A DNA stretch of 64,000 bases. It comes from Pseudoxanthomonas beigongshangi. Lineage in GTDB: Bacteria; Pseudomonadota; Gammaproteobacteria; Xanthomonadales; Xanthomonadaceae. Of the stretch, positions 14,478-46,491 are shown piece by piece; position 1 is the first letter of the stretch; each line of letters opens with the position of its first letter. The translations under genes were made by a program, and so were the position numbers. The notes under the pieces are model-generated. The model was not told where the DNA came from, did no database searches, and saw only the letters and a program-made list of their open reading frames with translations. The stretch lies in NCBI RefSeq assembly GCF_016820515.1, contig NZ_JADHDV010000018.1, positions 1 through 64,000 of the forward strand, given 5' to 3'.

Positions 14478-14621
14478 GCGAACCCTCAATCTGGCTGGTG
14501 TTGCCCCTGAATCGGGAAATATAACCCAGCTCGCGGCTTCCCGGCCGTGAAGCCGGGTTTCACACGACGGGAGGGGCGGCATCGTACAGGTTGTCTTAAG
14601 CCGCCCCTGCCCCTCCCTTTT

Positions 14622-17863: not shown

Positions 17864-17872
17864 CCCATCGTT

Positions 17873-17937
17873 CCCTCTTCTTCCGGGAAGAGGGTCGCGG
17901 CGATGGCGCGACGCGGAAACGCAGGCGCGCCATCGCC
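17873..17937 (+). other. two stable hairpins between etfB and etfA
   Basis: The gap holds CCCTCTTC / GAAGAGGG with a 6-base loop and then a perfect 12-base pair arm (GGCGATGGCGCG / CGCGCCATCGCC) around a 15-base loop. Neither is followed by a T-tract, so they are unlikely to be terminators. They may protect an mRNA end or set the etfB:etfA ratio, or the second may be a copy of an intergenic repeat. Confidence 0.7.
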
Positions 17938-17957
17938 AGAATTCTGGAGATTCCGCA

Positions 17958-20177: not shown

Positions 20178-20279
20178 AGCTGAATCCTGGGGCGATGGGA
20201 TGAAAAACTAGGGCTGTCCAGCGACCGGACCGCTTGCAGGTCGGTCTGGCAACAAGGGCGTATGATAACTTGTTCCCGC

Positions 20280-20317
20280 CATCGCAGCCCGGCCCATGCC
20301 TGTGCCGGGCTGCGATG
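20280..20317 (+). promoter_or_regulatory. long hairpin in the leader of the GT2-GNAT-PIG-L operon
   Basis: A perfect 14-base inverted repeat (CATCGCAGCCCGGC / GCCGGGCTGCGATG) with a 10-base loop lies 40 bases before the GT2 start codon. A TATGAT -10-like hexamer is at 20261-20266, so the hairpin would be at the 5' end of the mRNA. No T-tract follows it. It has no ops/JUMPstart element of the enteric kind. Confidence 0.6.
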
Positions 20318-20356
20318 CACGGTGACCCGACATCTGCCATTGGAAAGTGTAGAAAG

Positions 20357-21394: not shown

Positions 21395-22242
21395 GGCCAA
21401 CAGAAGCCACTCCGATCATGCTGGTGAAGTACGAAGCGCTCTTCGCGGAATGCTTTCCCGGTGCCACCCACCTGAACACCGCTTACCTCGCGTGGCTGTA
21501 CCGCGACAATCCTGCGGGAACAGTGGTCGGTTTCGATGCATGGGAGGGTGACGTGCTGGCGGCGCATTATGTCTGCGTGCCTGTTGATGCCGTACTCAAT
21601 GGGAATCCCGCCCGACTGCTCTTGTCCCTTAATACCGCCACTGCACCCGCGTTCCAGGGAAAGGGCCTGTTCACACGCCTGGCTGATGCCACATACCAGT
21701 ATGCCGCGTCCCGTGGCTTCGATGCCGTGTATGGCGTGGCCAATGCAAACTCAACGCCCGGTTTCATACGGAAACTCGGTTTCGACCTGTTGACTCCTCT
21801 CGACGCGAAGGTCGGCGTTGGCCATCTCCCGATGGTCGACGATACCGACAACCTCCAACGGCAAGCACTCTTTCATCGCCTGTGGCGGCGGGACGCACTT
21901 TCCTGGCGCTTGGGCAGCCCGGCCCGGCCTTATCAACTTGTCCGTGCCGGACAACGGATTGCAGCATGGACGACCACCGGGCGGGCGGGCATCGCCGCCT
22001 GGGCGGAACCCATACTGGAGGAGTCTCTGCCTGAGAACCTGCCGTCTCCCCCTATGCGCATCCATCTACAGCTTGGCCTGATTCCCGAAGCAATGAAGAC
22101 GAAGGGCGTGCGTTGGTTCAACATCCCCGATCGGTTCCGCGCCAGCCCACTGAATCTCATCTTCAAGCCATTGCAATCCGGCGTGTCTGCCCCTCCCCGC
22201 GATGCGATCCTGTTCGGGCAACTGGACTTCGATGCGTTCTGA
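21385..22242 (+). CDS. GNAT-family N-acetyltransferase-like protein
   Basis: A 285-residue protein with an N-terminal GNAT domain. The acetyl-CoA-binding region reads TAPAFQGKGLFTRLADATYQ, followed by the typical GVANANSTPGFIRKLGF block. The C-terminal third (from about residue 165) is unlike ordinary GNATs and ends in a second beta-rich segment. The GTG start with ribosome site AATGGAGG overlaps the GT2 stop by 10 bases, and its end overlaps the PIG-L gene. It probably acylates an amino sugar of the polysaccharide; the sugar is not identifiable. Confidence 0.83.
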   Translation: MELRPTEATPIMLVKYEALFAECFPGATHLNTAYLAWLYRDNPAGTVVGFDAWEGDVLAAHYVCVPVDAVLNGNPARLLLSLNTATAPAFQGKGLFTRLADATYQYAASRGFDAVYGVANANSTPGFIRKLGFDLLTPLDAKVGVGHLPMVDDTDNLQRQALFHRLWRRDALSWRLGSPARPYQLVRAGQRIAAWTTTGRAGIAAWAEPILEESLPENLPSPPMRIHLQLGLIPEAMKTKGVRWFNIPDRFRASPLNLIFKPLQSGVSAPPRDAILFGQLDFDAF

Positions 22243-22990
22243 TATTCCCCTGGTCGTGATCATGGCGCACCCGGACGATGAGTTCGCGGTGTTCCCTTGG
22301 CTCGAGGCGGCGTGTCGCGAACACAGGCTCATTCATTGTTGCTGGCTCACCGATGGTGGTTGGGGTGGCCAGGACATCAGCAGGAGGCGGGCAGAAAGCA
22401 CCGCGGTGCTCCGCAAGATTGGCATTCCGCTGGAGGCGATGCACTTCATCGGCGAGCAACTGGAAATCCCGGATGGGGAGCTCCATACTCGACTCGAGCA
22501 GGTGGTGCCTGCCCTACGCAAACTTTTCCTTGGGTTGCCTGAAGCGGTGGAGGTTTTAGTTCCTGCTTGGGAAGGCGGACACCAGGACCACGATGCTACC
22601 CAACTCGCAGCCATCGCTGGGGTATCAGGCAGGCGGGCACGCCTCCGGCAGTTCTCTCTTTACCATGGCGCGCGCTTGTCCGGGCCCTGGTTCCGGGTTC
22701 TTGCCCCCCTCGCGGAGAATGGTCCCCTGTCCACTCTCCCGCTCGGGCCGACAGCGCGACTTCGGTGCCTTGTCAGATGCACCCGCTATGTATCGCAGTG
22801 GAAGAGTTTTCTTGGATTGCTACCTTTCTATGGCTTGAAAATGCTCGTCCGCCACCCGTTCGCTTTGCAAGACGTGAGCTTTTCGAGAACGGCAGAAAGG
22901 CCCCATCCGGGGAGGCTCCTTTACGAGCGCAGAACTGTCCTGACGTGGGAAGCCTTCGCCGAGTGGACTAGCGCCTATCGCAGCCCCTGA
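22232..22990 (+). CDS. PIG-L family (LmbE-like) deacetylase
   Basis: A zinc-dependent N-deacetylase of the PIG-L/LmbE family, 252 residues. The metal-binding motif AHPDDE is at the N-terminus and the third ligand region is GGHQDHDAT. Family members remove acetyl groups from GlcNAc-containing lipids or sugars. Its start lies within the end of the GNAT gene, so deacetylation and re-acylation may be linked steps. It ends 8 bases from the converging wecB stop. The C-terminal 90 residues (basic, aromatic) go beyond the core fold. Confidence 0.9.
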   Translation: MRSDIPLVVIMAHPDDEFAVFPWLEAACREHRLIHCCWLTDGGWGGQDISRRRAESTAVLRKIGIPLEAMHFIGEQLEIPDGELHTRLEQVVPALRKLFLGLPEAVEVLVPAWEGGHQDHDATQLAAIAGVSGRRARLRQFSLYHGARLSGPWFRVLAPLAENGPLSTLPLGPTARLRCLVRCTRYVSQWKSFLGLLPFYGLKMLVRHPFALQDVSFSRTAERPHPGRLLYERRTVLTWEAFAEWTSAYRSP

Positions 22991-22998
22991 GCGAACAT

Positions 22999-24120
22999 TC
23001 AGGCATGCGAACTCACTACCTCAACGATCCGCGAGGCAGCCAGACCATCTCCGTAAGGATTATGCGCTCGCGACATCGCCCCATAGGCGCGCTCGTCATC
23101 CAGTAATCGGTTGGCCTCTTGGACGATACGCTGACTATCGGTCCCTACCAGTAGAACCGTACCAGCCTCGATCGCCTCGGGCCTCTCCGTAGTATCCCGC
23201 ATAACCAACACGGGCTTGCCGAGGGACGGGGCCTCTTCCTGAATGCCGCCGGAATCCGTAATGATGACGTGCGCTCGCGACATCAAGTAGACGAACGGCA
23301 GGTAATCCAAAGGCTCGATCAGGTGTACACCGGCGGCCCCGCCCAGGATACGATTCACGGGGCCTTGCACATTCGGATTCAGATGCACGGGATAGACGAC
23401 CTGGACGTCGCCCCGCGACGCGATTTCCTTGAGTGCGTGGCATATCTGTTCGAATCCCTCACCGAAATTTTCGCGCCGGTGCCCAGTCACCAGTACCAGC
23501 CGCTTGTCCGACGAGAGAAATGGAAAACGCAGCGCCAGTGCTGAGCTCAAGCCCACGTCTGCCTCGATCTTTTTCACGACGGCAAGCAGGGCATCGATAA
23601 CCGTGTTGCCGGTTACGTGAATCGAATCCTTGGCGATACCTTCGTCCAACAGATTGCGGCGAGATTGTTCGGTGGGCGCGAAATGCAGCGTCGAAAGCGG
23701 AGCAGTCAAGCGCCGATTGGCCTCTTCCGGCCAAGGCGAGTAAACGTTGCCGGTTCTCAGCCCGGCCTCGACATGGGCCAGGGGCGTACGATGGTAGTAG
23801 GCGGCCAGCGAGGTCGCCAGCGTGGTACTGGTATCGCCATGGACCAGTACGAGATCCGGCGCGTGCTTCTCGATAACGCCCGCCATGCCGGTCAGGACCC
23901 TAGCGGTCAGGTCAGCGAGGCTCTGGCCGGGCTTCATGACATTGAGGTCTTCATCAGGCACGATTCCAAACAGCTCAAGCACCTGATCCAGCATCTGCCG
24001 GTGCTGTGCCGTGGCCACCACAATCGTCTGGATCCCGTCCGCGGCACGCAGCGCTTCCACCACCGGCGCCATCTTGATGGCTTCCGGTCTCGTGCCAAAC
24101 ACAACCATTACCTTCTTCAT
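22999..24120 (-). CDS. wecB: non-hydrolysing UDP-N-acetylglucosamine 2-epimerase
   Basis: Converts UDP-GlcNAc to UDP-ManNAc. The family is recognisable from [44 protein letters not shown] and [19 protein letters not shown]; the catalytic acidic and histidine residues in these blocks are present. It is 373 residues from the ATG of MKKVMVV (an in-frame GTG three codons upstream is possible but has a weaker ribosome site). It is the last gene of the long minus-strand LPS operon. With wecC 9 kb upstream it supplies UDP-ManNAcA. Confidence 0.96.
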
Positions 24121-24142
24121 TCGATTCACCAGGGGAAAGCAC

Positions 24143-26152
24143 TCAGGACATCGCGACGTCGAGCCGGCTTCCGTCCAGCGCCGCGAGTGATTTTAGGGTA
24201 TGCAGGTAGAACTCTGGAACATAATGGAATGGTGACACTCCCCATTTGTGTGCGCTGTCCGAGACTAGCAGCCCCGGAGGATAATCGATTGCTCTAATTC
24301 CCTCGAATGAATCGATAAAGCCATACATCCGTGCCAACTGGATGTTTGCAGCCTGAATCTCGTCCTGCTTGGGAAGCTCCATGCCGCTTTCGTCGTGCGT
24401 CGCCCAGAAGACCCTGTTTAGGATGATCCTTTCTTCGCCCACTACCGATGCCAGACGCCTGAATCCCTCTCGCCAGCGTCTCATTCGCGTTGGATTTGCC
24501 AGCGGAACCCACTCCGCCCTGGGCGGAAGTTGAATTCCCGCTTTGAGCATTTCTGAGGATACCGTAACGAAAGAATCCCCGAACTCAGCAAGATCAAAGC
24601 GTTCATCAATGAGGTCCAGCAAGAGATAGTCATACTCCGTGGTACCTAGGACCGTGACGGCGGTGCGTCGCAGGTCGGCGGCGACCATTCTCCGCTGAAA
24701 CTCGCTGGTGATGCCACTGAGGTCGGCTTCTCCCACAGTAACATCACAGGAACGACCAAACGCGCTCGCTATCGATGAGCGGGCAAGATAGTCGTGGGGT
24801 TTCGTATCACCGAGAAAGGCGTCCCTCGAGACACAACTCCCGAAGACGAAAATGCGCTTGCAATCATCCTCTTCGGACTCGAAGGCCAACTCTCCGCTGA
24901 AGGCCAATTGGTCGAGCCCATCCCGCATGAAGGCCACGATCTTATCAATTGGTTTACTTTTCTCGGTCCTGAAGTAGGCCTGCCTGCTTGGTGTATACCA
25001 ATGCGTCCTGATGCGTTCCCCGCGGCTATAGGCATAGAACGCATAGCTTGCTCCCGGGTACCTGGCGCCATCCGGAAGCATAACCGAAGCAACGATACCG
25101 CCGTATGCCGATGCGACCTCCACGTTGAGCGACGCCATGGACCCTCGCGCCGCGTTGAACGGCGCAAGCTCACGTTTCCGCACCGCGATGACCTGCTCCG
25201 AAATCGAAGACTCGAACAAACTGCCAGGCATGAAATCTCGCCCACACATCGCCCCAACCAATGTCTTGATCAGTTCAATGGAAGGAATAGCATGTCCCTT
25301 CCCCCAACTTCCAAAGAAGACCGCCCAATGGTCGTTCCTGGTCAAGTACAGATCGGGTTCGACGGGCGCGAGTCCATGTCCTGCAATGAAGGGGGCAGCA
25401 TGGGCCTTCACATGCCAGTCACTGGAGTTCTGGAGATAGAGCATCCGCCTAGGTCCAGGCATTGCATCTGGCGCGGTGACGGAAGCGCGGACTCCCACCT
25501 TTGCTAGCGACTCCGCTGTCACGGCATCTGCGCCCCGTTCGCCCACGAGGTCGGGAAAAGCCGCTTTCAGATACGTGTCGACACTTCGGCGCGAATACTT
25601 GAGGAAATCGGTCTGTGGATTCCAGACCAACACGGAAGCCTTTTCTCCCAGTCGCATGCCGAGATTGATCGCAGCAAAGCCACCACCACTACCTCCGATC
25701 AACAGCAGTTCCATGCCGAAGGAATCCGACAGGTGAACAAGTATTTCCGTCAGCTCATCCTGCAGCCGTTGCCATTGGTTACCTGCATACCACGCCAGTC
25801 CCAGATCTTCGTCCAGAGACACGGTTGGGTCAGCAATGCAGATGCATGGTCTGCCCAGCTGCCTTGACACCGAAAGGCCCGAAAAGAAAGGAGGCGTCTT
25901 TTCAGCTCTTCCGCTCACTGCACCCGCGAAGAATACGGGAAGTACCTCACCTTCTTTGAAACCTGCCTCGCAACCATGGATGAGCAATTGGATCGGACAT
26001 CCGGATGTCTGGATGACGTGAAGGCCAACGGACTGCTTTCCTGCCGCTATGAAGTCCTGTGGCGCTCGCCAAATGCTCGGCTCGCCACTGACCCATGGCC
26101 GATAGTTGGGCGCCTGAAGGGCGGGGAGTATTGCGCCAGCGGTCTTGCTCAT
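24143..26152 (-). CDS. alpha/beta-hydrolase-like protein fused to a DUF6270 domain
   Basis: A 669-residue protein of two parts. Residues 1-300 look like an alpha/beta hydrolase: nucleophile elbow GGSGGG (Ser155), a DWH near 245 and a possible catalytic His at 275 (NDHW). From about 433 to 655 lies a DUF6270-type domain opening with [11 protein letters not shown] and then [15 protein letters not shown]6270 proteins occur in capsule and teichoic-acid loci and have a Ser/Cys reminiscent of acyl-hydrolases, but their reaction is unknown. A middle beta region (330-420) joins the parts. The start overlaps the GT39 stop as ATGA. An O-acyl transfer or hydrolysis role is inference. Confidence 0.72.
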
Positions 26153-27732
26153 CGGTCTGACTGGCAGGTGCCATCCGGCTCAAGCATCAGTACGAATACC
26201 CTAGGTTTGGTTTCCGTCATGCTCCAATCGAAAAAACCCAATTCAGCCTCCACTCCATCCATCCTGGTTCGTGCCATCCGTGGGCCAACCTCCGACGTAA
26301 TATCCCTGACACCGGCCCCCTCTACCGAAGCGCATCGTAAAGGCCAAGAATTCGTATGTTTTAGCGCTTCTGAAGGATTGTAGACAATGATCGCCCTGCT
26401 ACCTTGGCGCAAATTGCCTTTCGCCGGACTCACGCCATGTTGCGGTCCATAGCCAAGTGCACGGAACGAAAAATAGTCGTCGACATACACTGGGACTCCC
26501 GGGAAGCGTTCCCGGGCATTGGATACGGCGGCCTGGAATGCACGGAACTCACGCGCGCGATAGATGTCGCCGGCTCGCTCCGCAGGAAACACTATCTGTT
26601 GGGCGACCAGTCCAACGAGCGCTGCCATCGCCATTGAGCGCAAAATCCCACTCGACCCCAGCCAGGGGGATACGGCCCGCGCCAGCACGATGCAAAACAA
26701 CACCGCCGCGGGTGCGTAATAGCGGATCTGGATGGGAATGCCGACGTACTCGCGCAAGGAAATACTACCAAACGTCAGAAACAACAGTACCCAGAGCGCA
26801 GACAAGGATACGATGCCATCAACCGAACAGATAAATCGCGAGATCGATCGATGCCGCCAGATCAGCAGCAAGATTGACGCGAAGTATATGGGAGCCACCG
26901 GCCATAATGCCCTGAATTGTCCATAAGCATAGTTAAGTCGCTCTATCGGCATGGTTCCTTGGTATGACATGAACTTGGCTGCCTCCTGGACCACGTTCAT
27001 ATTCTTTGCAACAGTAAAACGAATCAATGGATCACCAAAGACCCCGTACGAGAGCAGTAGGTCTCCCAACAGTACGCAGGCCACTCCTCCAATCCCCCAA
27101 CCCAGATGACGGAAAGCGGCCTGCAGTGGCATGCCACGAATCGTCCAGAGCGCGTACGCGGCGACCGGCAGGAAAAACGCTAGTGCAGCCTCTTTCGTCA
27201 CATAACACAGTGCCGCAAAAGATGATGCGAGAAACAAGCTCCATCCTCCGGATGAAACCCCTAGTCGCATGCATTTGTACCAGTACGCAAACAGCAGCAC
27301 TGCCACGACGAACATGATGGACAACATGTTGTCCGGGAGAACGGCTCCGGCAAAGAAGAAAAGGACGGGATTTGCCACCACGAGGATTGACGACAGCAAG
27401 GCTTCGCGCTTGTTATAGACCCTTGCTGCGAGGAAATAGACAACCAGCGCAAGCACTACGAAAACGAAAACGAAACCAAAAACTGCTTTCTGAGGCTCGT
27501 TCCCGGAGAGCTCCAGCATGACACGCAGCGGCACCGAGATCGTATATCGCGCAGCCCCGAGTAACGCGTAGTAAGGCGCCTGGGCAAAGCCCGCGGCGCC
27601 ATTTATGTATGCCAGATCGTCCGAGCCAAACAAGCCCGTGAAGTAATACAACGAAATCAAGGCGCCGCCGATGATCACCAGCAACAGTGCATAAAAGTTG
27701 TCGGTTTGACCAATTTTTCCGGCGGTGCGCAT
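26149..27732 (-). CDS. GT39/PMT-like polytopic membrane glycosyltransferase
   Basis: A 527-residue protein with about eleven hydrophobic segments and a C-terminal soluble part (from about 420). The first periplasmic loop contains the acidic pair of GT-C enzymes (LFGSDDLAYINGA, near residue 36). Membrane helices alternate as in dolichyl-phosphate-mannose-type glycosyltransferases. GT-C enzymes use a lipid-linked sugar donor on the outer face of the inner membrane. It is coupled by ATGA overlap to the DUF6270 gene and follows the lipoprotein by 3 bases. The acceptor (LPS or a protein) is unknown. Confidence 0.78.
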   Translation of the reverse strand: MRTAGKIGQTDNFYALLLVIIGGALISLYYFTGLFGSDDLAYINGAAGFAQAPYYALLGAARYTISVPLRVMLELSGNEPQKAVFGFVFVFVVLALVVYFLAARVYNKREALLSSILVVANPVLFFFAGAVLPDNMLSIMFVVAVLLFAYWYKCMRLGVSSGGWSLFLASSFAALCYVTKEAALAFFLPVAAYALWTIRGMPLQAAFRHLGWGIGGVACVLLGDLLLSYGVFGDPLIRFTVAKNMNVVQEAAKFMSYQGTMPIERLNYAYGQFRALWPVAPIYFASILLLIWRHRSISRFICSVDGIVSLSALWVLLFLTFGSISLREYVGIPIQIRYYAPAAVLFCIVLARAVSPWLGSSGILRSMAMAALVGLVAQQIVFPAERAGDIYRAREFRAFQAAVSNARERFPGVPVYVDDYFSFRALGYGPQHGVSPAKGNLRQGSRAIIVYNPSEALKHTNSWPLRCASVEGAGVRDITSEVGPRMARTRMDGVEAELGFFDWSMTETKPRVFVLMLEPDGTCQSDR

Positions 27733-27735
27733 GTC

Positions 27736-28218
27736 TTACTGCTCCTTCGCCACGTCTTCCCAAACGAAATAAATAGTTCCCTGTGCCTCTGGCGGCAACT
27801 TCAGCGCCGGATCCTTATTGATGTCGGCGGTCATACGCCCAATCTTGGAATTCTGTGCGACATACCGAATCGCTCCATTGCGCTCAACCGGCTCTTTGAC
27901 GACTAGTCCGCGTGCTTTCAAATCGGCCGACAGCAAATCTCCGATGGCATCGTCGGTAGCCTTATACTCTACGATGACGATGTGGCGGGAACGCCCCTCA
28001 GAGAGCGGCTCTTCCCGCTTCGAACGCAAGCGTGTTTCGAATGTTGGCACGTAGCCGCCCAGGAGCGTGTAGTCCACTCCTGCCGCCGGACCAGTGACTG
28101 CCGGTGTAGCCGCAGCATCAACTGCCGGTACCGCCGTCTTGTCCTGTTCGGACTTCTTCTCCCCGCACGCAACCAGCACCAGGGCGGCCGCCGAGAACAA
28201 CATGACGCGAAGTTTCAT
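27736..28218 (-). CDS. small lipoprotein of unknown function inside the LPS operon
   Basis: A 160-residue lipoprotein. The signal peptide ends in lipobox LVLVAC (Cys18) and is followed by an acidic/Lys start (GEKKSEQDK) and an Ala/Pro linker. The body (residues 48-160) has mixed alpha/beta character with an amphipathic helix DDAIGDLLSADLKARGL and a conserved-looking C-terminal strand GTIYFVWED. I do not recognise a family. Being in the middle of a polysaccharide operon it might be an outer-membrane accessory or anchoring factor, but nothing in the sequence proves that. Confidence 0.8.
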   Translation of the reverse strand: MKLRVMLFSAAALVLVACGEKKSEQDKTAVPAVDAAATPAVTGPAAGVDYTLLGGYVPTFETRLRSKREEPLSEGRSRHIVIVEYKATDDAIGDLLSADLKARGLVVKEPVERNGAIRYVAQNSKIGRMTADINKDPALKLPPEAQGTIYFVWEDVAKEQ

Positions 28219-28288: not shown

Positions 28289-31200
28289 CTATCGGTGCAA
28301 CGAAATCAGTGCCACTTCTCGCCGAATGGTGGAATCGAAGCCGCTCTGGCCGCGAACCCGCCTGGCTGCATTCGACGACAGCCGTTCGAACTGCGTCGGA
28401 TCCTGGACTACCTGGAGGATTCCCTGCGCCATGGCGCGCCAGTCCTCTCCGGGTGCGAGAATCCCGCAAGTCTCGTCGACAAACTCGGGAATAGCGGTTA
28501 CCGCATTGGTCACCGGAACCAGACCAGACGCCATTGCTTCATCACGGGATACACCCTGTGAATCCATCCGGGTGGGGGCAAGGAAGATACCGTACTGCTT
28601 GTGGAGCTCTGCAATCTCCCCTTGGCTCAGGAACCTTCGCTCGATGCGCACGTTCCGCATCTCCAACAGAGGCTGAAGTGTTTCGTCGAACAGAGCGCCA
28701 TCGCCTAGTATGTGGAAGCTCATTTGCTCAAATACCGGGTGCTTGCTCAATTCGACAATCGCATTTACAGAAAGATCGTTCGCGTATTTGGCTGAGGCGA
28801 ACGGTCTGATGCTCAGAACCTTGAATCGCTGCTCAGGGTCCTTTCTCTCGTAGGAGAAAAGTTCCTCGTCAATATAGTTATGGATAATCTCGTACCGCGA
28901 TACGTCCAGCTTGATTCCAACGTCCTCCATAACCTCGTTGGCGAAATATTGGGAAACGAATACGAAGCCAAGGAGAGGACTTGTCTCAGAAAACACCTCC
29001 CGCCACAACCGCATGCGCGCATCACTTGCAATGACGGCCTTGGCCTTTTCTTCCTCGGTTCGGTAGTTGAACTCGCGTCTATGCCAAGGCTGTACCTCGG
29101 CTCCATGGATCCAGACGATGACCCGGATCTTGTCAACGAAGTCCTTAATGACCGACCACATCCCCTCATCGAGGAAGTGCACGAGGACGGACTCTACCCC
29201 TCCAGATTCAAGCAGGGAACGTAACATCTCCCTGTCGGCATACCTGACGTCCACGCCTTCGAACTCGTGGGACATGGCCTGCCTCTCCGAGAGACAGACT
29301 ACATCCACGTCCAGTCCCAAGTCGCGATACCCGACCACTCGCCTGTGAACAAAGCCATTTCGATACAGATTGTCATATGAAGGATAGTGGTTGGTAAGCA
29401 CCAGCGTCTTTCGTCTGACCACCATCGCGCCGATGTCGGCCGGCAAGTGCTCCATGTAGAGAGCTCGGATCACACCCTCTCCCGCTCCCTTGACACGCAG
29501 GCCGAATCGAACCGCCTCGGAACCTGCCGGCACCATCACTGTATGATTGCGTCCTGCCGCCACCATCTGCACCCCGGTACGCTCGCCCCCCTTTCCGAGG
29601 AAGACCACGGCGAGCTCCATCCCGACATTCGTGCTCACATCCAGATTGAACCGGAGCTCCTCGTGGGACCACCAGTCAAGCGGGAGCGGCTGCATATACA
29701 GGTAGAGATGCTTGTCATGCGCGAGCGTCGATACCACCCGGATACCTGCATCGGGGTCAAAACCAGCAGTTACAGCCCCGTTTCCGTGATTCCCGAACAG
29801 CTGGGCAAGCCGTTCACCATCAATGCGCGGGAGTGCGACATCTGGTTGGAAAGCAGCAGCCGGAATGCTCTCTGCCTGACGGAGAATCTCCACCAGAGGG
29901 ATGCCACCGTCTATCTCTGGCAGGCAAACTACACCATCCAGGTTGTTCGCCGATGCGCCACGGAGGTAGTGGAACTCATCAACGGCAAGAGCACGTCCGT
30001 GGTACGCACCTCGCTCGATAGAATCCACGAAATTCTTGAGATCGCCCTGGATCAAATCGCTCGCAAGCACGGAGCACCGGATGTCTATCGCATCAAGGTA
30101 ACTGTACTGCCCGCCTTCCTTGTTCAGCGCCACGCCAGCTTCCATCACCTCGAAATAGGTTCCCTTCCCGATCGCCCTCGTATCAGAGTAAACGAGCGCC
30201 AGCATCATGTCGGTCAGGTAGTGATCGCCATAGGAATCATCAAGCGACACCCCTGCCAGCATGGCTTTTGGCCACTTCTGCGAAGGGTTCACCTTGACGC
30301 AGGATTCATAGCCAAGTACCGAGACATCCGCGGAACGCGGCAGATCGCCAGCACGAAGTCCTTCGGAAGCGACGAGCACAAGGTGTTTTTCGGGCCACGA
30401 TTGTCGAAGGAAATTTGCGCGCGCCTGCTCCACGTCGGCCAGCGAGGAAACCCTCGCGACCATGACGGCGAGGGGCTTATCGACACCGGGATGATGCTCG
30501 TCAACCTTTGAGAGAACGTACTCAAGCCGATGCTGATAGGTATGTTCCATCATGATCTTGCGTAAACCGGATAAGCGGAATCGTCGATACGCCAGATCAT
30601 CGTCCAACAACGGCTTGAGGCGTTCTAGCATCTGCCCGCCGTTGTCTGTGGTGAACACGAGGTCGCCAAACATCAGTCTGAGACCGAGGGAGAAATTGCT
30701 TATCGTCGCTGTATTGCAGCCGAGCAGATCGAATACGCGGCGCGCGAACATCGATTGCGACTGCTTCACGGAATTCAAGTTGATGTTGTAACGATATCCC
30801 TTGTACGCTCGGTCAATCTGATCAAACGCAAGCCCTCCCTTGATCAGGGGCTGATAATCGGCCGGAAATTTGTAGGCAGGATCGTCTTTACCATGATTGC
30901 GGTCATAGATATGTATCTCGGTCTCCTCCCGGAGCACTCCAATGAACGTATCCAGATCCCTCTGGCGCTCTGGAAACCTCGCGTAATACGCCCCGGCGAA
31001 ACAGAACGCATCTTGCCTCTCATACTGCTCGACGGGATTGTGCGTCACTGGCTGGCAAGCAAATGGCAACAGATAGACGCGATCATGGCCAAGGTTGGCC
31101 TTGTACCGGGAGATACAATCAATATCGGTCGTGAATACATGATCAAAGCGGCTTGCCGTCGCGATGAAGCCCTCAAAATGGACTGGATCTTCCTTGTTCC

Positions 31201-33106
31201 AGAATATGGTAGGAATTCTCCGGATTCGACACCAGTCAATGATGTCCCTTAGCTCATCCGAGCAATGGCTTATCTTGCCCTTCCAGGCATCATTCTTCCC
31301 GCGCCACGCGGATTCGATGAAAAGAATGTCCGGCGAATGGTTCTCAAGCTCTTCTCTCCAGTTGGAGGGGGTCAACTGAAGCACGTTGCAGCAGTGCTGA
31401 TAGGACGAATAGGTGAATTCGTCCATGATCGCAGCCATCCTTATTCCGGATAGATTTTTTGGCAGGGACGGCAGCCGCGCTGTGCGCACACTGGCATCCG
31501 ATGGAATACTTGCGGATGGAACACCTGTTCCAATTTCCGTCAGTGCTGGAGAGATGGGAGAGTTCTCCAAATAGCTCAGTGCTTCCGATCGAAGTGCCCC
31601 AATCTGTGATCTGTAGCCGACATCGACAATCTGACGGGGAGAGGCACCGCTGCGCCTTGCGCTTGCCTCACGAGCCAAGCGCAGTAGCGTGCCAGGCAGC
31701 TTGATGGCCTTGGATGGCGAGGTGGCCGCACGCAGCAAGCTGTTCCCAAGCTGCAGCGAAAGTGAGTTCGCCAACACCTCTTGAGCCTCCAGAGCGTGAA
31801 TTGCTCGACCCAATGCCGAAGACAACCGGCCGATCACTTGATCCCCGACAACCTTTTGCTTTGCCGCATCATCCAGCTTTTGAGTGAGGCCAGCGAGCGT
31901 CGCTTTTACGATTTCCAACTGTTTGCCTTGCGCGACCTCACTATTCTTGGCGTCAGCCAGTCTCCGTAACTCGGTATCCAGGCGTGTCTGTAGTTCCGCT
32001 GCCCGCGACTGACTTTCCAGCAGTTGTTCGTTCAAACGCTGGAGACTTTGCGCATGGCCCTCGAAATGCATCGCAACTCGTTCCATCCATGCATCGTTAC
32101 GCTTGGCCAGTTCCATCCCTTGCCGCTCAACCAGCGATTGGAATGAATCAGACATCGCAGTGAGCATCACCATGAATTCCCTGCGTGCATCCGCCGCATC
32201 GGCCGTCAGGCCCCGCAGCTCTTCCCTTAGCTCGTTCTCGCTCGCCATTTGTAGATCTTTCAGTTCCTTTACGACGTCGGCCCTTTGTCCATCAGAGTAT
32301 TGTCTTCCTTCACGGCTCAGCCGTTCCGAATACCTGTCGGACCTCCTAATTTCCCCTTGCAGTCTCCTGATTTCTCGTTGCAGCAGGATGATCTCTTCGA
32401 AGCCATGCTCCGTCAGTCTCCCTTTCTCTTCCTCTGTTCTCGCGGGGAGGAATAGATAGGTGTCCGTTGCGTTGTAGCAGGCTGTCGGCAGATAACCCAT
32501 TTCCGCCATGAACGAGCTGATGGCCATGCGCTGGCTGGCCGTTGCAGCCTCGCAGACCACCCAAGGTCGGTCCTTGAGCAAGGTTTTCCTCGCGCCCTGC
32601 AGGACGTCCAAGTCCATTCCCTCGACATCGACCTTGAGGAGGGAAACTTTCTCTTCTAGGTTCAGTTCATCAATCGAGACCACATCGATTTCGCCATCCG
32701 AGCCCAAGGCCAAGCTGGTGCCACCGATATTGGTCGGATCGAACGATGCAACGCGGGCCTTCGCGCTGGCTCTACCGAGGCCTGACTTCCTTGGGCTGAC
32801 CAGGTGCTGCACCTCATTGAGGGCAATGTTTTTCTGCAGGAGATTGAATGTCTCCTCGATCGGTTCAAAAGCGAGGACGCGGCAACCTACGCACTTGGCG
32901 AAGAAAATCGAGTGGTTCCCGATGTTCGCACCAGCATCCACGACCAGATCGCCCGGCGCCAGGAGGGCTGCCAGAGACAACAGCATTTCCTCCTCATAGA
33001 AAGCATTGCCGTCGATGATCGACTTGGCGATATGGTCTTCCCGGCTGGAGAAAACGAACTCGATTTCCTTGCCGGCATGGACAAACTTGAAATAGCCGTC
33101 GCTCAT
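28289..33106 (-). CDS. giant multidomain protein: FkbM methyltransferase, coiled coil, CgeB-like and GT4 glycosyltransferases
   Basis: A 1605-residue protein that makes up over a quarter of the island. Residues 1-215 are an FkbM-type methyltransferase (VVDAGANIGNHSIFF at 55-69, FEP at 80-82, KVDVEGMDLDVLQGA at 158-172). Residues 225-450 are strongly heptad-patterned, Glu/Arg/Leu-rich coiled coil. Residues 553-880 resemble CgeB-type glycosyltransferases (MDEFTYSSY, FWNKEDPVHFEGF, CFAGAYYARFPERQ). Residues 880-1100 look like a weaker GT2/GT-like segment and 1110-1230 a beta-rich module. Residues 1230-1605 are a GT4 glycosyltransferase (FHILGDG, LAPTRMDSQGVSRDEAMA, EFVDETCG). It likely builds and modifies the glycan; order of action is inference. 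Confidence 0.85.
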   Translation of the reverse strand: MSDGYFKFVHAGKEIEFVFSSREDHIAKSIIDGNAFYEEEMLLSLAALLAPGDLVVDAGANIGNHSIFFAKCVGCRVLAFEPIEETFNLLQKNIALNEVQHLVSPRKSGLGRASAKARVASFDPTNIGGTSLALGSDGEIDVVSIDELNLEEKVSLLKVDVEGMDLDVLQGARKTLLKDRPWVVCEAATASQRMAISSFMAEMGYLPTACYNATDTYLFLPARTEEEKGRLTEHGFEEIILLQREIRRLQGEIRRSDRYSERLSREGRQYSDGQRADVVKELKDLQMASENELREELRGLTADAADARREFMVMLTAMSDSFQSLVERQGMELAKRNDAWMERVAMHFEGHAQSLQRLNEQLLESQSRAAELQTRLDTELRRLADAKNSEVAQGKQLEIVKATLAGLTQKLDDAAKQKVVGDQVIGRLSSALGRAIHALEAQEVLANSLSLQLGNSLLRAATSPSKAIKLPGTLLRLAREASARRSGASPRQIVDVGYRSQIGALRSEALSYLENSPISPALTEIGTGVPSASIPSDASVRTARLPSLPKNLSGIRMAAIMDEFTYSSYQHCCNVLQLTPSNWREELENHSPDILFIESAWRGKNDAWKGKISHCSDELRDIIDWCRIRRIPTIFWNKEDPVHFEGFIATASRFDHVFTTDIDCISRYKANLGHDRVYLLPFACQPVTHNPVEQYERQDAFCFAGAYYARFPERQRDLDTFIGVLREETEIHIYDRNHGKDDPAYKFPADYQPLIKGGLAFDQIDRAYKGYRYNINLNSVKQSQSMFARRVFDLLGCNTATISNFSLGLRLMFGDLVFTTDNGGQMLERLKPLLDDDLAYRRFRLSGLRKIMMEHTYQHRLEYVLSKVDEHHPGVDKPLAVMVARVSSLADVEQARANFLRQSWPEKHLVLVASEGLRAGDLPRSADVSVLGYESCVKVNPSQKWPKAMLAGVSLDDSYGDHYLTDMMLALVYSDTRAIGKGTYFEVMEAGVALNKEGGQYSYLDAIDIRCSVLASDLIQGDLKNFVDSIERGAYHGRALAVDEFHYLRGASANNLDGVVCLPEIDGGIPLVEILRQAESIPAAAFQPDVALPRIDGERLAQLFGNHGNGAVTAGFDPDAGIRVVSTLAHDKHLYLYMQPLPLDWWSHEELRFNLDVSTNVGMELAVVFLGKGGERTGVQMVAAGRNHTVMVPAGSEAVRFGLRVKGAGEGVIRALYMEHLPADIGAMVVRRKTLVLTNHYPSYDNLYRNGFVHRRVVGYRDLGLDVDVVCLSERQAMSHEFEGVDVRYADREMLRSLLESGGVESVLVHFLDEGMWSVIKDFVDKIRVIVWIHGAEVQPWHRREFNYRTEEEKAKAVIASDARMRLWREVFSETSPLLGFVFVSQYFANEVMEDVGIKLDVSRYEIIHNYIDEELFSYERKDPEQRFKVLSIRPFASAKYANDLSVNAIVELSKHPVFEQMSFHILGDGALFDETLQPLLEMRNVRIERRFLSQGEIAELHKQYGIFLAPTRMDSQGVSRDEAMASGLVPVTNAVTAIPEFVDETCGILAPGEDWRAMAQGILQVVQDPTQFERLSSNAARRVRGQSGFDSTIRREVALISLHR

Positions 33107-33156: not shown

Positions 33157-34446
33157 TCAGGCGCGCCAGAAACCGACCGGGTCAATAGTAATCGCGTTCT
33201 TTCCTGGGCGTAGCCCACGGAAGGTCGTATGCGGCACCAACATCACCGCGAGATCGGCACCTGTCAGAGCATCGTCGACTTTGCCGAGGATCAGATCTCC
33301 TACCGGCTCTCCGGAGTGTGCGAGCGCGTCGATATAGGGGTCGACGCCGATCACCTGGCCGGGGAAGCGTTCAGACAGGTCCCTTGCAATGGTCAGCGCC
33401 GGACTTTCTCTGAAATCATCGACATCCGCCTTGTAAGTCAAGCCCAGGCATACGATCCTGCCACCAGGACGATCCTGCATGGCCTCAACAACCTGCTGAA
33501 CCACATATGCGGGCTTCGCATCATTCACTTCACGCGCAGTACGGATGATGCGCGATTGTTCGGGTGCACCGGCAACGATGAACCAGGGATCGACCGCGAT
33601 GCAGTGTCCGCCCACTCCGGGACCTGGATTCAATATATTGACCCGAGGGTGATGGTTGGCCAATTGAATGACCTTCCACACATCCAGCCCCAGCCGTCCG
33701 CAGATCATCGACAGTTCGTTGGCAAATGCGATGTTGACGTCGCGGAAGGAATTTTCGGTCAATTTGCAGAGTTCTGCGGTTCTGTCGTCACTAGGTAGGC
33801 AGTCCCCCTTGACGAAACTCGAGTAGAGCGTGGTTGCCTTTTTTGTGCATGCAGCGGTCATCCCGCCGATGATCCTGTCGTTCTCGACCAGTTCGACAAG
33901 CATCCGCCCGGGGATGATTCGTTCCGGGCAATAGGCGAGATGTACATCAGGTGACGCTTGCCCATCAAGCGGAAAGCTCAGGTCTGGACGCATCTCCGCT
34001 AGCAGTTGTGCAACCAGGCGTGTGGTGCCCACAGGTGACGTGGATTCCAGAACGATGAGGTCACCCTTCTTCAACACCGGTCCGATGGAACGGGCGGCGG
34101 CTTCCACATATGACGTATCCGGTACGTGGCTGTCGTGATCAACCGGCGTGGGCACGGCGATGATGAAACTGTCAGCGGCTTCGGGAACTCCTGTCGCACG
34201 CAGCCTGCCGCTGGTTACACAGCGGTGGACCAGTTCGGACAGTCCCGTTTCCTCAATGTGGGGTGAGCCCGCATTCACGGCGTCGACGGCCCGTTGTGAG
34301 ACATCGATTCCGATGACCGAGTGACCTGCCGAAGCAAACATTGCAGCGGTCGGCAAGCCAATGTATCCAAGGCCAATAACGGAGATTACACCGAGTTCCC
34401 CATTGTTCGCGCTCATACCGTTATTTCCTTTGTTATCCATTTTCAT
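33157..34446 (-). CDS. wecC: UDP-N-acetyl-D-mannosamine dehydrogenase
   Basis: Oxidises UDP-ManNAc to UDP-ManNAcA by two NAD-dependent steps. The Rossmann start VIGLGYIGLPTAAMFA, the TSPVGTT block, KLTENSFRDVNIAFANEL and the catalytic cysteine segment GPGVGGHCIAVDPWF are intact. The C-terminal UDP-binding domain holds GLTYKADVDDFRESPAL. It is 429 residues. The ATG overlaps the upstream GT4 stop as ATGA. With wecB it gives the polymer an acidic amino sugar. A UDP-glucose-6-dehydrogenase role is excluded by the WecC-type HHPRVNIL segment. Confidence 0.95.
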   Translation of the reverse strand: MKMDNKGNNGMSANNGELGVISVIGLGYIGLPTAAMFASAGHSVIGIDVSQRAVDAVNAGSPHIEETGLSELVHRCVTSGRLRATGVPEAADSFIIAVPTPVDHDSHVPDTSYVEAAARSIGPVLKKGDLIVLESTSPVGTTRLVAQLLAEMRPDLSFPLDGQASPDVHLAYCPERIIPGRMLVELVENDRIIGGMTAACTKKATTLYSSFVKGDCLPSDDRTAELCKLTENSFRDVNIAFANELSMICGRLGLDVWKVIQLANHHPRVNILNPGPGVGGHCIAVDPWFIVAGAPEQSRIIRTAREVNDAKPAYVVQQVVEAMQDRPGGRIVCLGLTYKADVDDFRESPALTIARDLSERFPGQVIGVDPYIDALAHSGEPVGDLILGKVDDALTGADLAVMLVPHTTFRGLRPGKNAITIDPVGFWRA

Positions 34447-35885
34447 GCCCCGCGCATATATTGCTGGGGGTCTTCGGCACGCGACGCCACTGCGTAAATG
34501 CACTGCAACTGGGCAAGCAGCCTGTGTGCGACAGATTTCCAGGAAAACTCGTCAATTTTCATTTTGTCCCGCATAGCCATCAGTTCCGCTCCCTCTTCTC
34601 GCTCGTAGTTGCCGAGGAAATCCAAAATGGCCTCCCGCCTGTTGGGAAGGCTCCAACCGGAACCTGTTTGCATAACGATTTTCCCGGACTCGTCCTCTTC
34701 GGAGCCTCCTATGTGGAGGATTGGCCGGCCTGCCCCAAGATATTCGAACAGTTTACCCGGAACTTGAATTGGATCGGCATTCGCGAGATTTACCAGCAGA
34801 TCGCACTCGCGCTGCGCCTGGATCGCCGCCGCATGCGGAACGAAACCCAATAAACGTATTGAGTCCGGGTACTTGCGCGCAGCTTCCAACAATTCCATAG
34901 GGGGATTGATACTAGCCACGCTCAATCTTGTTCCATTCGCACGCACTACTGCGGAGATAAGCTCATCTGGCTTGCGGAAACTGTAGAAACTTCCAGCATA
35001 GAACAACTCAAGCCTGTTCCTGTCGAAGACGACCACCTTGCATCCAGACGGCGCCGCTTGAACTCCGGCGTACCCCTGGGTCGCTACCAAGAATTTTTCT
35101 GGAGAAACCCCATGTCTCTGGACAAGGACATCCCTTGCCCCTGCGGCAGTGAGGGTGATCAGATCCGCGCGCTCGCATACCATCCTCTCAAGCGACTCGG
35201 CATGCTCTCTCCATCGTATGGGTGTGTACGGAGAAAGTACGGGATCCCCCAGATCAGCAATCCAGCGATACCCCCGACGCTTGGCGAGGATGCCGAGCGG
35301 AAGGGAATTCGCGGGTTCGTGCGATGTCACTACGAAATCCGGCTGGAATCTTGCGAGCAACCGCAACAACTTCCAGCGGGCCCATGGCCACCATTCGGCC
35401 CGGATGTCAGGGTACATCCAAAGCTCCGCAAGGACCCTTGGCAAGTCCGCGAGGCTGCCCCCCACCCGCAGGTCCAGCCCGCAGCGCCCCGCCCATCCCG
35501 CCAGTCCGGGACCGATTCGAAGGGCCGCCTCCATGGAGCGCCTCAACTTGCCTTTCCAGTTGAGCACGACAGGCTGTAACGTCACCGGGTCTGACGTCGT
35601 CCCCGGGTCGGTGCATGCGCCATCGGCACTGCTTCGATTCAGGGCCTGGCGGCGACGCATCCGCCACGTCCGCCAGGCCGAAAATGGACCCGGCCATACC
35701 CGGTGCACGTGCACGTCGGCATGTGGCACCGGCAATCCCCCTCCCCCGCCATATCCTTCAACATCGGGGGCGAGCACGTGGACTTCGTGTCCCGCCTCAG
35801 CCAGTTCGTTGGCCAGATAAGCCCATCGGAGCGACTGTGGGGAAGGAATCGGTGGAAAATCGTAGGCGACAAGAAGAAATCGCAT
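34443..35885 (-). CDS. family 4 glycosyltransferase
   Basis: A 480-residue GT-B glycosyltransferase. The N-terminal fold starts LLVAYDFPPIPSPQSLRW with the glycine-rich loop GYGGGGGLP; the C-terminal half has LELFYAGSFYSFRKPDELI and the donor-binding block VPGKLFEYLGAGRPILHIGG with the EX7E-type acid. A long basic insertion (residues 75-150) separates the first strands from the catalytic core. It is tightly coupled to wecC downstream and follows wzt by 9 bases. The sugar transferred is not identifiable. Confidence 0.88.
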   Translation of the reverse strand: MRFLLVAYDFPPIPSPQSLRWAYLANELAEAGHEVHVLAPDVEGYGGGGGLPVPHADVHVHRVWPGPFSAWRTWRMRRRQALNRSSADGACTDPGTTSDPVTLQPVVLNWKGKLRRSMEAALRIGPGLAGWAGRCGLDLRVGGSLADLPRVLAELWMYPDIRAEWWPWARWKLLRLLARFQPDFVVTSHEPANSLPLGILAKRRGYRWIADLGDPVLSPYTPIRWREHAESLERMVCERADLITLTAAGARDVLVQRHGVSPEKFLVATQGYAGVQAAPSGCKVVVFDRNRLELFYAGSFYSFRKPDELISAVVRANGTRLSVASINPPMELLEAARKYPDSIRLLGFVPHAAAIQAQRECDLLVNLANADPIQVPGKLFEYLGAGRPILHIGGSEEDESGKIVMQTGSGWSLPNRREAILDFLGNYEREEGAELMAMRDKMKIDEFSWKSVAHRLLAQLQCIYAVASRAEDPQQYMRGA

Positions 35886-36664: not shown

Positions 36665-37453
36665 TCACATCCACAGCGGAACGAAACGCGCGTAGCGGCG
36701 ATATAGATAGGCGGTCATCGCCAGTCCGACGATCGTCAAACCTGCAACATAAAACAAGGTCGTCGTTTCCAGCGACTCGCCAAGCAGGGGCGCCCTGACT
36801 AGCTCAATCAGGTGATACAGCGGGTTGATTCGCATGAAGACTCCATGCACGGTACCAGGCGGGGCCGCGCTCGCACTCCAGAGAATCGGGGTGAGGATGA
36901 AGCCAAAAATGAAAACGCTGGTCATCAGCTCATGGATGTCGGGGAACCTCGCGCCCAACAGTGCGATGGCAATACCCATCCACATCGCGTTCAGAATCAA
37001 TACGACAAGAGCCGGCAGCGAAATCGCCAGGCCCCACAGTTCCAGTCGCGGGGACACCAAAAGGGCAACGATCAAAACCGGCGCCGCCACGGAGAGGTAA
37101 AAGAGTCCCTTGGCCACCACCCTGAAAACGAAATCCGTCAGTCGTGCGTGTCCATCCAGTATGAAACTGGAGTTCGCGGGCAGGACCAATGATGATTCAG
37201 TGATTATCGTCATCAGAAACCGGAACAGCAGATAGCCCACGCCCAGATGGGGAATGAATTCGAGGGGCGACAGGCCTTGCAGCTTGGCGAAGTAATAGCC
37301 CACTCCAAGGACGTAGATCAGGGGCGGAATCAGCAGCCAGACGAGACCCAATCGCGAACGCCGATATTTGGTCACGATATCCAGCCAGGTGGAATAGGCC
37401 CAGAATTCGGGCTCCCGCAGGCTGCCAAGCACATCCCTGACAAGCGAACTCAA
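36665..37453 (-). CDS. wzm: polysaccharide ABC transporter permease (Wzm)
   Basis: Six-helix permease of the O-polysaccharide exporter, 262 residues. The ABC-2/TagG pattern is clear: YSTWLDIVTKYRRSRLG near the start (amphipathic gate helix), six hydrophobic segments and a C-terminal RINPLYHLIELVRAPLLG block. The start is TTG and overlaps the stop of the metB-like gene (TTGA), which couples this transporter to the housekeeping gene next to it. wzt follows 8 bases downstream. Confidence 0.93.
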   Translation of the reverse strand: MSSLVRDVLGSLREPEFWAYSTWLDIVTKYRRSRLGLVWLLIPPLIYVLGVGYYFAKLQGLSPLEFIPHLGVGYLLFRFLMTIITESSLVLPANSSFILDGHARLTDFVFRVVAKGLFYLSVAAPVLIVALLVSPRLELWGLAISLPALVVLILNAMWMGIAIALLGARFPDIHELMTSVFIFGFILTPILWSASAAPPGTVHGVFMRINPLYHLIELVRAPLLGESLETTTLFYVAGLTIVGLAMTAYLYRRYARFVPLWM

Positions 37454-38628
37454 AGTCCCACCTCCAGGCTGTTCCTCAGGTCATCAACGGCCTCGATCCC
37501 GACACTCAACCGGACAAGTCCATCCGAGATGCCCAGCGTATTCCGACGATCTGGAGGAATCGAAGCATGTGTCATCACTGCCGGATGGTTGACGAGACTT
37601 TCGACGCCACCAAGCGATTCGGCCAAGGTAAACAAGCCACTGTTCTCACACAGTCTGCGCGCGGCCTCGAAACCGCCTTTCATCACGATGGAAATGATTC
37701 CGCCGTAGCCCTGCATTTGGCGCGAGGCAAGACCGTGATGCGGATGGTCCTTGAGACCAGGATAGATGACCCGTTCAATCGCAACCTGGCCTTGCAGCCA
37801 TTCGGCCAGCGCCATGGCATTCTCGCAATGCGCCTTCATGCGCAGATGCAGGGTCTTCAGGCCACGCAGTGCCAGGAAGCTGTCGAACGGTCCCTGTACC
37901 GCGCCGATGGAGTTCTGCAGGAACGCCATCTGCTCGGCGAGCGCGTTGTCGTCTCCAACCACGGCGATGCCACCGACCATGTCCGAGTGGCCATTGAGAT
38001 ACTTGGTGGCAGAATGCATGACGATGTGCGCGCCGAGTTGCAACGGACGTTGCAGGATCGGCGAGGCGAAGGTGTTGTCCACGACCACGATCAGGCCGTG
38101 CTTGCGGGCGGCCTCGGCGATCGCCTGGATGTCGACGATCTTGAGCATCGGGTTGGTCGGGGTTTCGATCCAGACCATCCGGGTGTTCGGGCGAACCGCC
38201 GCTTCGAACGCGGCGGGATCAGTCAGGTCGACGAAACTGAATTCCAGTCCTGCGCTGCGCTTGCGCACGCGCTCGAACAACCGATAGCTGCCGCCATAGA
38301 TATCGTCCATGGCGATCACATGGCTGCCGCTGTCCAACAGTTCCAGCACCGTGGAGGTGGCGGCCATGCCGGAGGCGAAAGCGAAACCGCGGGTACCGCC
38401 TTCAAGCGCGGCCACGCAGCGCTCGTAAGCGAACCGGGTGGGATTGTGGGTCCGTGAGTACTCGAAGCCCTGGTGCACGCCCGGGCTGGCCTGGGCGTAG
38501 GTCGAGGTGGCGTAGATCGGGGGCATGACCGCCCCGGTGCTCGGATCGGGAGCCTGTCCGCCATGGATGGCCAGCGTGCCGAGGGCGTAGGAGGCTTCTC
38601 CCCCGCCATTGGGCTTGGAGTCCGACAT
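37450..38628 (-). CDS. metB: cystathionine gamma-synthase/gamma-lyase, PLP enzyme
   Basis: Cys/Met-metabolism PLP enzyme of 392 residues. The PLP lysine is at about 209 in SATKYLNGHSD, with YSRTHNPTR and the DNTFASP block. Whether it makes cystathionine (MetB) or splits it (gamma-lyase) is not settled by sequence alone. The cystathionine beta-synthase gene directly upstream favours a reverse transsulfuration pair, so a gamma-lyase activity is likely. MetB is the name used for this gene at the Xanthomonas LPS locus edge. Good ribosome site (AAAGGAAC). wzm overlaps its end. Confidence 0.9.
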   Translation of the reverse strand: MSDSKPNGGGEASYALGTLAIHGGQAPDPSTGAVMPPIYATSTYAQASPGVHQGFEYSRTHNPTRFAYERCVAALEGGTRGFAFASGMAATSTVLELLDSGSHVIAMDDIYGGSYRLFERVRKRSAGLEFSFVDLTDPAAFEAAVRPNTRMVWIETPTNPMLKIVDIQAIAEAARKHGLIVVVDNTFASPILQRPLQLGAHIVMHSATKYLNGHSDMVGGIAVVGDDNALAEQMAFLQNSIGAVQGPFDSFLALRGLKTLHLRMKAHCENAMALAEWLQGQVAIERVIYPGLKDHPHHGLASRQMQGYGGIISIVMKGGFEAARRLCENSGLFTLAESLGGVESLVNHPAVMTHASIPPDRRNTLGISDGLVRLSVGIEAVDDLRNSLEVGL

Positions 38629-38714
38629 AGTTGTTCCTTTCAAACCGACCGCGAATTCTAGCAGTCGCGGCTTAACGTACCGTCCTTTTCACGCGGTTCC
38701 GGGACCCCGGGCGG

Positions 38715-46489: not shown

Positions 46490-46491
46490 GA

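Follow-up and report, generated by a model that had tools for sequence, protein, structure and literature searches.

How is the length of an O-antigen chain set when a terminator-like half and a polymerase are encoded as one polypeptide and the neighbouring Wzt carries no recognisable reader of the cap? Do ruler and cap alone set it? The question is raised by a 64,000-nucleotide stretch (the window) of contig NZ_JADHDV010000018.1 from Pseudoxanthomonas beigongshangi, which encodes a 1605-residue protein close to Wzm and Wzt. An initial annotation had likened this protein to WbdD of E. coli O9a and suggested that it might build, cap and measure a chain. Our analysis partly supports its main idea, that of a methyltransferase, coil and polymerase of the terminator-ruler type.

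An intact one-chain gene in an LPS locus

The open reading frame is intact on the minus strand, running from an ATG at 33106 to 28292 with the stop codon reaching 28289, and the single 1605-residue chain annotated at 28289..33106 is therefore confirmed. A start further upstream was ruled out, as 33106 is the first ATG, GTG or TTG after the preceding stop. Fusion through an assembly error or frameshift was also ruled out, because 15 of 80 homologous loci (the best 80 of 577) show this one-chain order as well.

The minus-strand gene order is wzm, wzt, a 480-residue glycosyltransferase gene, wecC, the 1605-residue gene, a 160-residue ORF, a PMT-type glycosyltransferase gene, a DUF6270 gene and wecB (Table 1). 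Reading the junction places the start of the 1605-residue ORF 50 nt past the wecC stop. A DUF6270-like protein was found by blastp in 35 of 80 homologous loci (best 80 of 577), and it may be a regular partner of the polymerase. According to an excerpt of PMC2238763, etfA and metB flank a variable LPS locus in Xanthomonas and Stenotrophomonas. The Xanthomonas loci share these flanking genes and the wzm-wzt start on the metB side with the locus described here; however, their Wzt proteins have 410 (Xoo BXO8) and 452 (Xoc BLS256) residues in that excerpt, compared with 259 here. Between 20 and 38 kb the G+C content, taken in 2-kb steps, is 0.54–0.60; elsewhere in the window it is 0.59–0.69. The source genome contains no match to Capsule_synth (PF05159), on which ground a Kdo-linked capsule route in this genome was rejected, and three matches to Wzy_C (PF04932). 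These two results fit LPS rather than a Kdo-linked capsule.

Genes for a GT2 glycosyltransferase, a GNAT acetyltransferase and a PIG-L deacetylase lie on the plus strand at 20234-22990, convergent with the cluster, and likely belong to the same LPS locus. Elsewhere in the window, the minus strand encodes an 829-residue reprolysin-like metallopeptidase with FG-GAP repeats (12093-14582) and a 342-residue ORF (46097-47125) with a ribosomal protein S9 domain at residues 222-342, the true start of which is probably internal.

Table 1. Coordinates of the protein segments and neighbouring genes in the window
Feature	Position	Strand	Basis
FkbM-type SAM methyltransferase, residues 1-220; proposed non-reducing-end cap enzyme	32447..33106	-	Pfam, NCBIfam, Foldseek
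Coiled-coil rod, residues 236-446; proposed ruler	31769..32401	-	coil script, PDB profile matches, AF2
Post-coil helical segment, residues 447-484	31655..31768	-	conserved consensus, AF2 short helices 449-484
CgeB-type GT-B glycosyltransferase, residues 550-890	30437..31459	-	PF13524, AF2
Degenerate GT2-like (GT-A) module, residues 893-1063	29918..30430	-	profile match to homologue L032
All-beta module, residues 1064-1232	29411..29917	-	AF2: nine strands 1112-1217
GT4-type GT-B glycosyltransferase, residues 1233-1605	28292..29410	-	Pfam, PDB profile, Foldseek
Wzm permease	36665..37453	-	PF01061; NF050109 160 bits, below cut-off 380
Wzt, 259 aa	35895..36674	-	ABC_tran 52-183, no Wzt_C
GT4-like glycosyltransferase, 480 aa	34443..35885	-	PF13439/PF13579
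wecC, UDP-ManNAc dehydrogenase	33157..34503	-	NF008286 equivalog 573 bits, cut-off 459
160-aa ORF directly after the 1605-residue gene, no Pfam family	27736..28218	-	Pfam search
PMT-type membrane glycosyltransferase	26149..27732	-	PF13231/PF02366
DUF6270 protein, recurrent neighbour	24143..26152	-	PF19786, 1.2e-52
wecB, UDP-GlcNAc 2-epimerase, about 4 kb downstream	22999..24129	-	TIGR00236 521 bits, cut-off 210
etfA, flanking gene	17817-18896	+	locus border
metB-like, flanking gene	37450-38643	-	locus border

The methyltransferase domain

The FkbM methyltransferase that had been placed at residues 1-215 is well supported. PF05050 matches residues 57-205 (E 1.9e-18, 67.6 bits vs a cut-off of 22.7), TIGR01444 scores 88.6 bits against a cut-off of 37.7, and the top Foldseek match of the model of the N-terminal half is the crystal structure of an FkbM methyltransferase (2py6). 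The domain was modelled by AF2 from an alignment of 23 N-termini with a pLDDT of about 95, and D57, G59-A60-N61, G63-N64-H65, E81, K158, D160, E162 and G163 are invariant in the 23 aligned sequences. It provides the sole PF05050 match found in the source genome. FkbM enzymes also modify non-terminal sugar positions.

No Pfam match in the 1605-residue protein corresponds to the kinase that stands between methyltransferase and coil in WbdD of the O9a/O3 type. In the AF2 model about 15 residues, from 221 to the coil helix at 236, separate that helix from the FkbM domain. Because this leaves no space for a kinase ahead of the coil, we rejected a kinase-methyl cap. A putative FkbM cap without room for a kinase is new relative to the published one-chain systems.

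The coiled coil and the segment that follows it

The initial annotation had made its ruler idea depend on a coiled coil at residues 225-450, and several lines of evidence agree on one. A COILS-type script (P>0.5, window 28) called pieces at 237-269, 283-318 and 348-389; with weighting, the pieces lie inside 236-455. The call is discontinuous, with 111 residues of 220-450 above P 0.5; in 200 shuffles the number averaged 14.9 and never exceeded 74. At the same window length, no coil residues were called in nine other proteins of the window. A profile of the 23 homologous N-termini matches the rods of myosin, tropomyosin and SMC among PDB sequences (within 227-474). The AF2 model of the N-terminal half (monomer, mean pLDDT 79.1, pTM 0.52) contains helices at 236-269 and 277-446, followed by shorter ones, a long predicted helix in a monomer model not being by itself a coiled coil. 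If 236-455 were continuous, simple arithmetic would give a rod of about 33 nm.

The segment after the coil has the consensus LRxSxxxxxGxxLxxAxxSxxxxxxLPxxL in the 23 aligned N-termini, and three of seven FkbM proteins encoded separately from the polymerase (L087, L088 and L095) terminate at this motif. An amphipathic membrane helix was expected here as in WbdD, but is unsupported by a hydrophobic-moment scan, in which the segment lies outside the 15 strongest helices. Contact of this segment with the membrane, by analogy with WbdD, would be only a guess.

The polymerase half

Both glycosyltransferases of the initial annotation were recovered. The one it had named CgeB-like, at 553-880, matches Glyco_trans_1_2 (PF13524) at 756-865 (E 4.5e-14), and the GT4 at 1230-1605 matches Glyco_trans_1_4 (PF13692) at 1444-1569 (E 2.6e-12, 47.6 bits vs a cut-off of 27) and Glycos_transf_1 (PF00534) at 1424-1582 (E 3.1e-11, 43.5 bits vs a cut-off of 26.4). 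The two modules are 44–65% and 44–60% identical, respectively, to the main polymerase of each of the 80 loci (best 80 of 577). Profile matches of the GT4 module in the PDB are glycogen synthase and GT4 enzymes. The AF2 model of the polymerase half (59 aligned sequences) has a mean pLDDT of 91.7 and a pTM of 0.87, with the CgeB-type module mostly above 90. Among 1736 Foldseek matches of the whole polymerase model, the best 50 are all GT-B proteins of the GT4 and glycogen/starch/sucrose-phosphate-synthase kind.

The region between these enzymes, previously described as less clear middle modules, can now be divided into a GT2-like module and an all-beta module. A profile of the GT2-like module matches three of seven relatives tried, the best being L032 at residues 851-1023 (E 5e-16), overlapping the PF00535 GT2 domain of that protein (837-960). 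In Pfam and PDB profile searches the module alone gave no more than a weak match to GalT1 (E 0.07), and no meaningful Pfam family. Because the aligned DxD is only partly kept, activity of this module is doubtful and the number of active glycosyltransferases uncertain.

For the all-beta module, neither Pfam nor PDB profile searches returned a useful match. It is possible that the module binds carbohydrate. That it is a cap-reading carbohydrate-binding module (CBM) moved from Wzt is a weak proposal, as homologous modules also occur without a fused FkbM domain. Of the 46 polymerases whose N-terminus is short and carries no FkbM (best 80 of 577), 26 give such a match, which makes a role in acceptor binding or processivity likelier.

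A transporter without a carbohydrate-binding module

The window Wzt has no C-terminal Wzt_C carbohydrate-binding module in Pfam searches, and Wzt_C (PF14524) has no match anywhere in the source genome. A Wzt-like ORF was found in 45 loci (from the best 80 of 577), and one of these (L053) has a C-terminal extension of at least 100 residues beyond the match to the nucleotide-binding domain (NBD). Wzt_C was found in none of 10 Wzt proteins scanned, the extended L053 protein included, and in all 16 Wzt proteins of the family set the chain extends no more than 32 residues past the NBD match. In this survey the query was itself CBM-less, 35 of the 80 loci (best 80 of 577) had no Wzt-like ORF in the stretch covered, and a transporter encoded nearby may handle a different glycan. 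According to an excerpt of PMC11231755, all terminated systems carry a CBM attached to Wzt. Because this module was looked for and is absent, we do not file the protein in the CBM-gated class. The 1605-residue protein may nevertheless work like a terminator-ruler despite its CBM-less Wzt.

Homologues with fused, separate and no putative caps

Homologues were collected by a scan of genome contigs. Since only the best 80 of 577 confirmed relatives were kept, the sample is biased to close matches. Within the family Xanthomonadaceae, 17 of 297 genomes (own included) match the 1605-residue protein at E 1e-20, mostly over the polymerase half. Five of 38 genomes of the genus match; the full chain is present in one, and no other match covers the FkbM domain. 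With the FkbM domain as the sole query, 12 of 395 family genomes (own included) match at E 1e-15, strongly only G048 and G097, in which FkbM sits on a different protein with a GT2 or GT4 domain of its own.

FkbM, a CgeB-type glycosyltransferase and GT4 are combined in one ORF in 15 of the 80 loci (blastp 1e-4; best 80 of 577). These come from Nitratireductor (two), Paenochrobactrum, Nitrospira, Billgrantia, Desulfovibrio, Advenella, a Burkholderiales MAG, Agrococcus, Helicobacter, Arthrobacter, Nocardioides, Segeticoccus, Cellulomonas and Colwellia; several are MAGs. Judged by sequence similarity, the polymerase half is found across phyla. Seven more of these 80 loci encode FkbM in an ORF of its own no further than 3.5 kb upstream, six times with a coil (L089 has none). 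Methyltransf_11/23-type domains occur in 12 of 18 FkbM-less N-termini (8/10 and 4/8), in a scan that left out three long ones (L060, L067 and L081). Another 39 of the 80 polymerases have a short N-terminus and FkbM neither fused nor just upstream, and because of these the polymerase appears able to work without a fused cap.

Coil and cap occur together. At least 28 coil residues precede the first glycosyltransferase in 15/15 FkbM-fused proteins and in 17/19 others with at least 300 residues there, compared with 3/7 polymerases with a separate FkbM gene and 8/39 remaining polymerases with fewer than 300 residues in this position (all from the best 80 of 577). As background, 39 of 838 other ORFs of at least 200 aa in the homologous loci have at least 50 coil residues.

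Three homologues deviate in other respects. In a Colwellia MAG (L115:4135-10359) the FkbM-coil-GT-GT4 chain continues into a C-terminal radical SAM and SPASM domain, and in Arenimonas fontis (L067:5326-8070) the matches to the 480-residue glycosyltransferase and to wecC lie within one 915-residue ORF. Locus L025, from family genome G160, has an in-frame TAG inside the matched stretch and is possibly a broken copy.

Changes of cap label on the polymerase tree

A tree of 88 polymerase halves (LG+G4), 78 labelled and 10 unlabelled, was used to follow three labels: FkbM, other methyltransferase and none. The last was given where fewer than 300 residues precede the first glycosyltransferase and no FkbM lies just upstream; L089 was labelled none and L113 dropped. 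The three labels change at least 20 times on a quick tree and at least 16 times on a careful one, where 100 label shuffles gave a mean of 29.5 and a minimum of 24 changes. When only the 34 FkbM or other-methyltransferase rows are considered, at least 6 changes are needed (200 shuffles: mean 10.0, minimum 5). An AU test, run after the quick tree was seen and with the FkbM group set by label, rejects a single FkbM clade (p 3e-7). These label changes suggest repeated gain, loss or exchange of caps among related polymerases; from the counts alone the three cannot be told apart. The 1605-residue protein pairs with the Paenochrobactrum fusion L041 (SH-aLRT 98, quick tree).

The putative donor sugar

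The names wecB and wecC rest on NCBIfam models whose cut-offs both window proteins exceed. Of the 69 loci with room for an upstream gene (from the best 80 of 577), 36 have a wecC-like gene that ends no more than 200 nt ahead of the polymerase; when genes of these loci were drawn at random 500 times, the mean was 1.4 and the maximum 6. Anywhere in the locus, wecC occurs in 61, wecB in 56 and both in 50 of the 80 loci (best 80 of 577). The adjacency of wecC is a sequence-level observation pointing to glycans that may contain ManNAcA. It is unlikely, in our view, that the glycan is not ManNAcA-based and that wecB and wecC serve another polymer, brought together here by mixing of loci. The distance of about 4 kb between the 1605-residue ORF and wecB would suit such an arrangement, as would the 25 of 69 loci (from the best 80 of 577) in which the 3.5 kb upstream contain no wecC match on this strand. 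However, the frequency of wecC directly upstream is far above that of random genes from the same loci.

Comparison with known systems

In the terminator-ruler layout as described in an excerpt of PMC11231755, a modifying enzyme stands at the far end of a coil and is followed by a helical segment and then the polymerase. The 1605-residue protein shares this layout: methyltransferase, long coil, conserved helical segment and polymerase modules, beside Wzm and Wzt. Compared with capped ABC systems, it has, by prediction, an enzyme at the distal coil end and polymerising glycosyltransferases in the same chain. The FkbM core, the C-terminal GT4 module and the WecC equivalog are all over cut-off, whereas no Wzt CBM and no WbdD-type kinase was found.

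The closest comparisons come from the same excerpt (PMC11231755). K. pneumoniae O7 ORF6 has the same N-to-C order in one chain and belongs to an ABC-transporter cluster; however, it has a kinase before the coil, a methyl-phosphate cap and two GT2 modules, compared with FkbM and CgeB plus GT4 here. WbbB of K. pneumoniae O12 likewise unites terminator, coil ruler and polymerase (two glycosyltransferases) in one polypeptide, but its cap is beta-Kdo, added by a GT99 module and read by a CBM of the transporter. Given these two precedents, building, capping and measuring in one chain is known in kind. In WbdD (E. coli O9a, K. pneumoniae O3/O5), a coil follows the N-terminal methyltransferase and keeps it apart from the site of polymerisation. 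The polymerase, WbdA, is not part of this chain but a protein of its own, a kinase is present as well in the O3/O9a form, and the corresponding Wzt carries a CBM; O5-type WbdD caps with methyl. The likeness to WbdD drawn in the initial annotation stands for the methyltransferase and the long coil, here joined to a polymerase beside Wzm/Wzt; the CBM on Wzt that such systems would lead one to expect is absent. Its statement that the parts are in a different order was mistaken, because the catalytic sites of WbdD are also N-terminal with the coil after them, and WbdD and O7 ORF6 share the methyltransferase-coil order (excerpt of PMC11231755).

The Wzm/Wzt of the K. pneumoniae O1/O2a galactan are, like those of the window, CBM-less, and their NCBIfam models are the nearest to the window proteins, below cut-offs. 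In that system length is set by transporter:synthase stoichiometry, and the excerpt of PMC11231755 describes no coil terminator for it. Group 3 capsule clusters of E. coli contain putative methyltransferases with coils of varying length according to an excerpt of PMC13171606, a likeness by description only.

Among the papers searched, we found none on FkbM-coiled-coil polysaccharide proteins. Because the terminator census of Mann (2019) may describe FkbM caps, we claim no priority for the cap. Apart from this reservation, what is new here comprises the putative FkbM cap, the cross-phylum polymerase half, the apparent exchange of caps, the range of coil content and the CBM-less transporter.

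A proposed mechanism and its alternatives

We propose, with somewhat more confidence than doubt, that the protein is a one-chain O-antigen assembly enzyme combining a polymerase, an FkbM terminal cap and a coil ruler with CBM-less export. WecB and WecC would supply ManNAcA, and the C-terminal half (CgeB-type GT-B, GT2-like, all-beta and GT4 modules) would polymerise a lipid-linked glycan containing this sugar. The FkbM domain would O-methylate the non-reducing end and extension would stop. By keeping the methyltransferase away from the polymerase, the coil of roughly 30 nm would impose a minimum chain length before capping. Wzm and the CBM-less Wzt would then export the chain for ligation to lipid A-core. 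An excerpt of a 2024 paper on Ochrobactrum LPS ascribes control of O-chain length to FkbM with reference to O. cytisi IPA7.2, the LPS of which is said to contain D-ManNAcA (PMC10888714).

Alternatively, FkbM may methylate an internal sugar of every repeat, or may methylate the terminal residue while growth continues; the coil would then serve only for dimerisation or as a scaffold, and length would follow from transporter stoichiometry, as in K. pneumoniae O2a. We regard this as rather improbable, although the transporter speaks for it: a CBM-less Wzm/Wzt resembles the O1/O2 transporter, where export is coupled to extension and, in O1, the terminal group only diversifies the chain (excerpt of PMC11231755). 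The nearest NCBIfam models of both window proteins are galactan exporters, each below cut-off. However, a simple decorator would not need a coil-separated geometry, and FkbM stands across a coil from the polymerase in 15/15 fused homologues (best 80 of 577), while methyltransferases of other Pfam families occupy the N-terminal place in other homologues. It is very unlikely that the FkbM-coil half is vestigial or recently acquired and has no effect on the glycan. The rarity of the full chain in the genus (1/38 genomes) and the variable locus of lower G+C would be compatible with this. On the other hand, residues of the SAM-binding and catalytic region are intact and invariant in 23 sequences, and the nearest polymerase relative on the tree, from Paenochrobactrum (L041), carries the same fusion.

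More tentatively, the one-chain assembly enzyme may be one form of a ManNAcA-glycan polymerase chassis found across phyla, in which capping methyltransferases are swapped by fusion or as neighbouring genes, each with its own ruler, and in which ruler and cap within the chain set length without a checkpoint at export. If this is true, capping and export selection are separable. The 15 fused homologues (from the best 80 of 577) form a natural series of coil contents, from 51 to 723 residues, attached to polymerases that are related to one another, and the ruler model can therefore be tested by comparing rod with chain length, besides engineering. The highest content is that of a Nitrospira MAG (L043:9884-16414), in which 723 coil residues separate FkbM from the polymerase; second among the 15 comes a homologue with 307.
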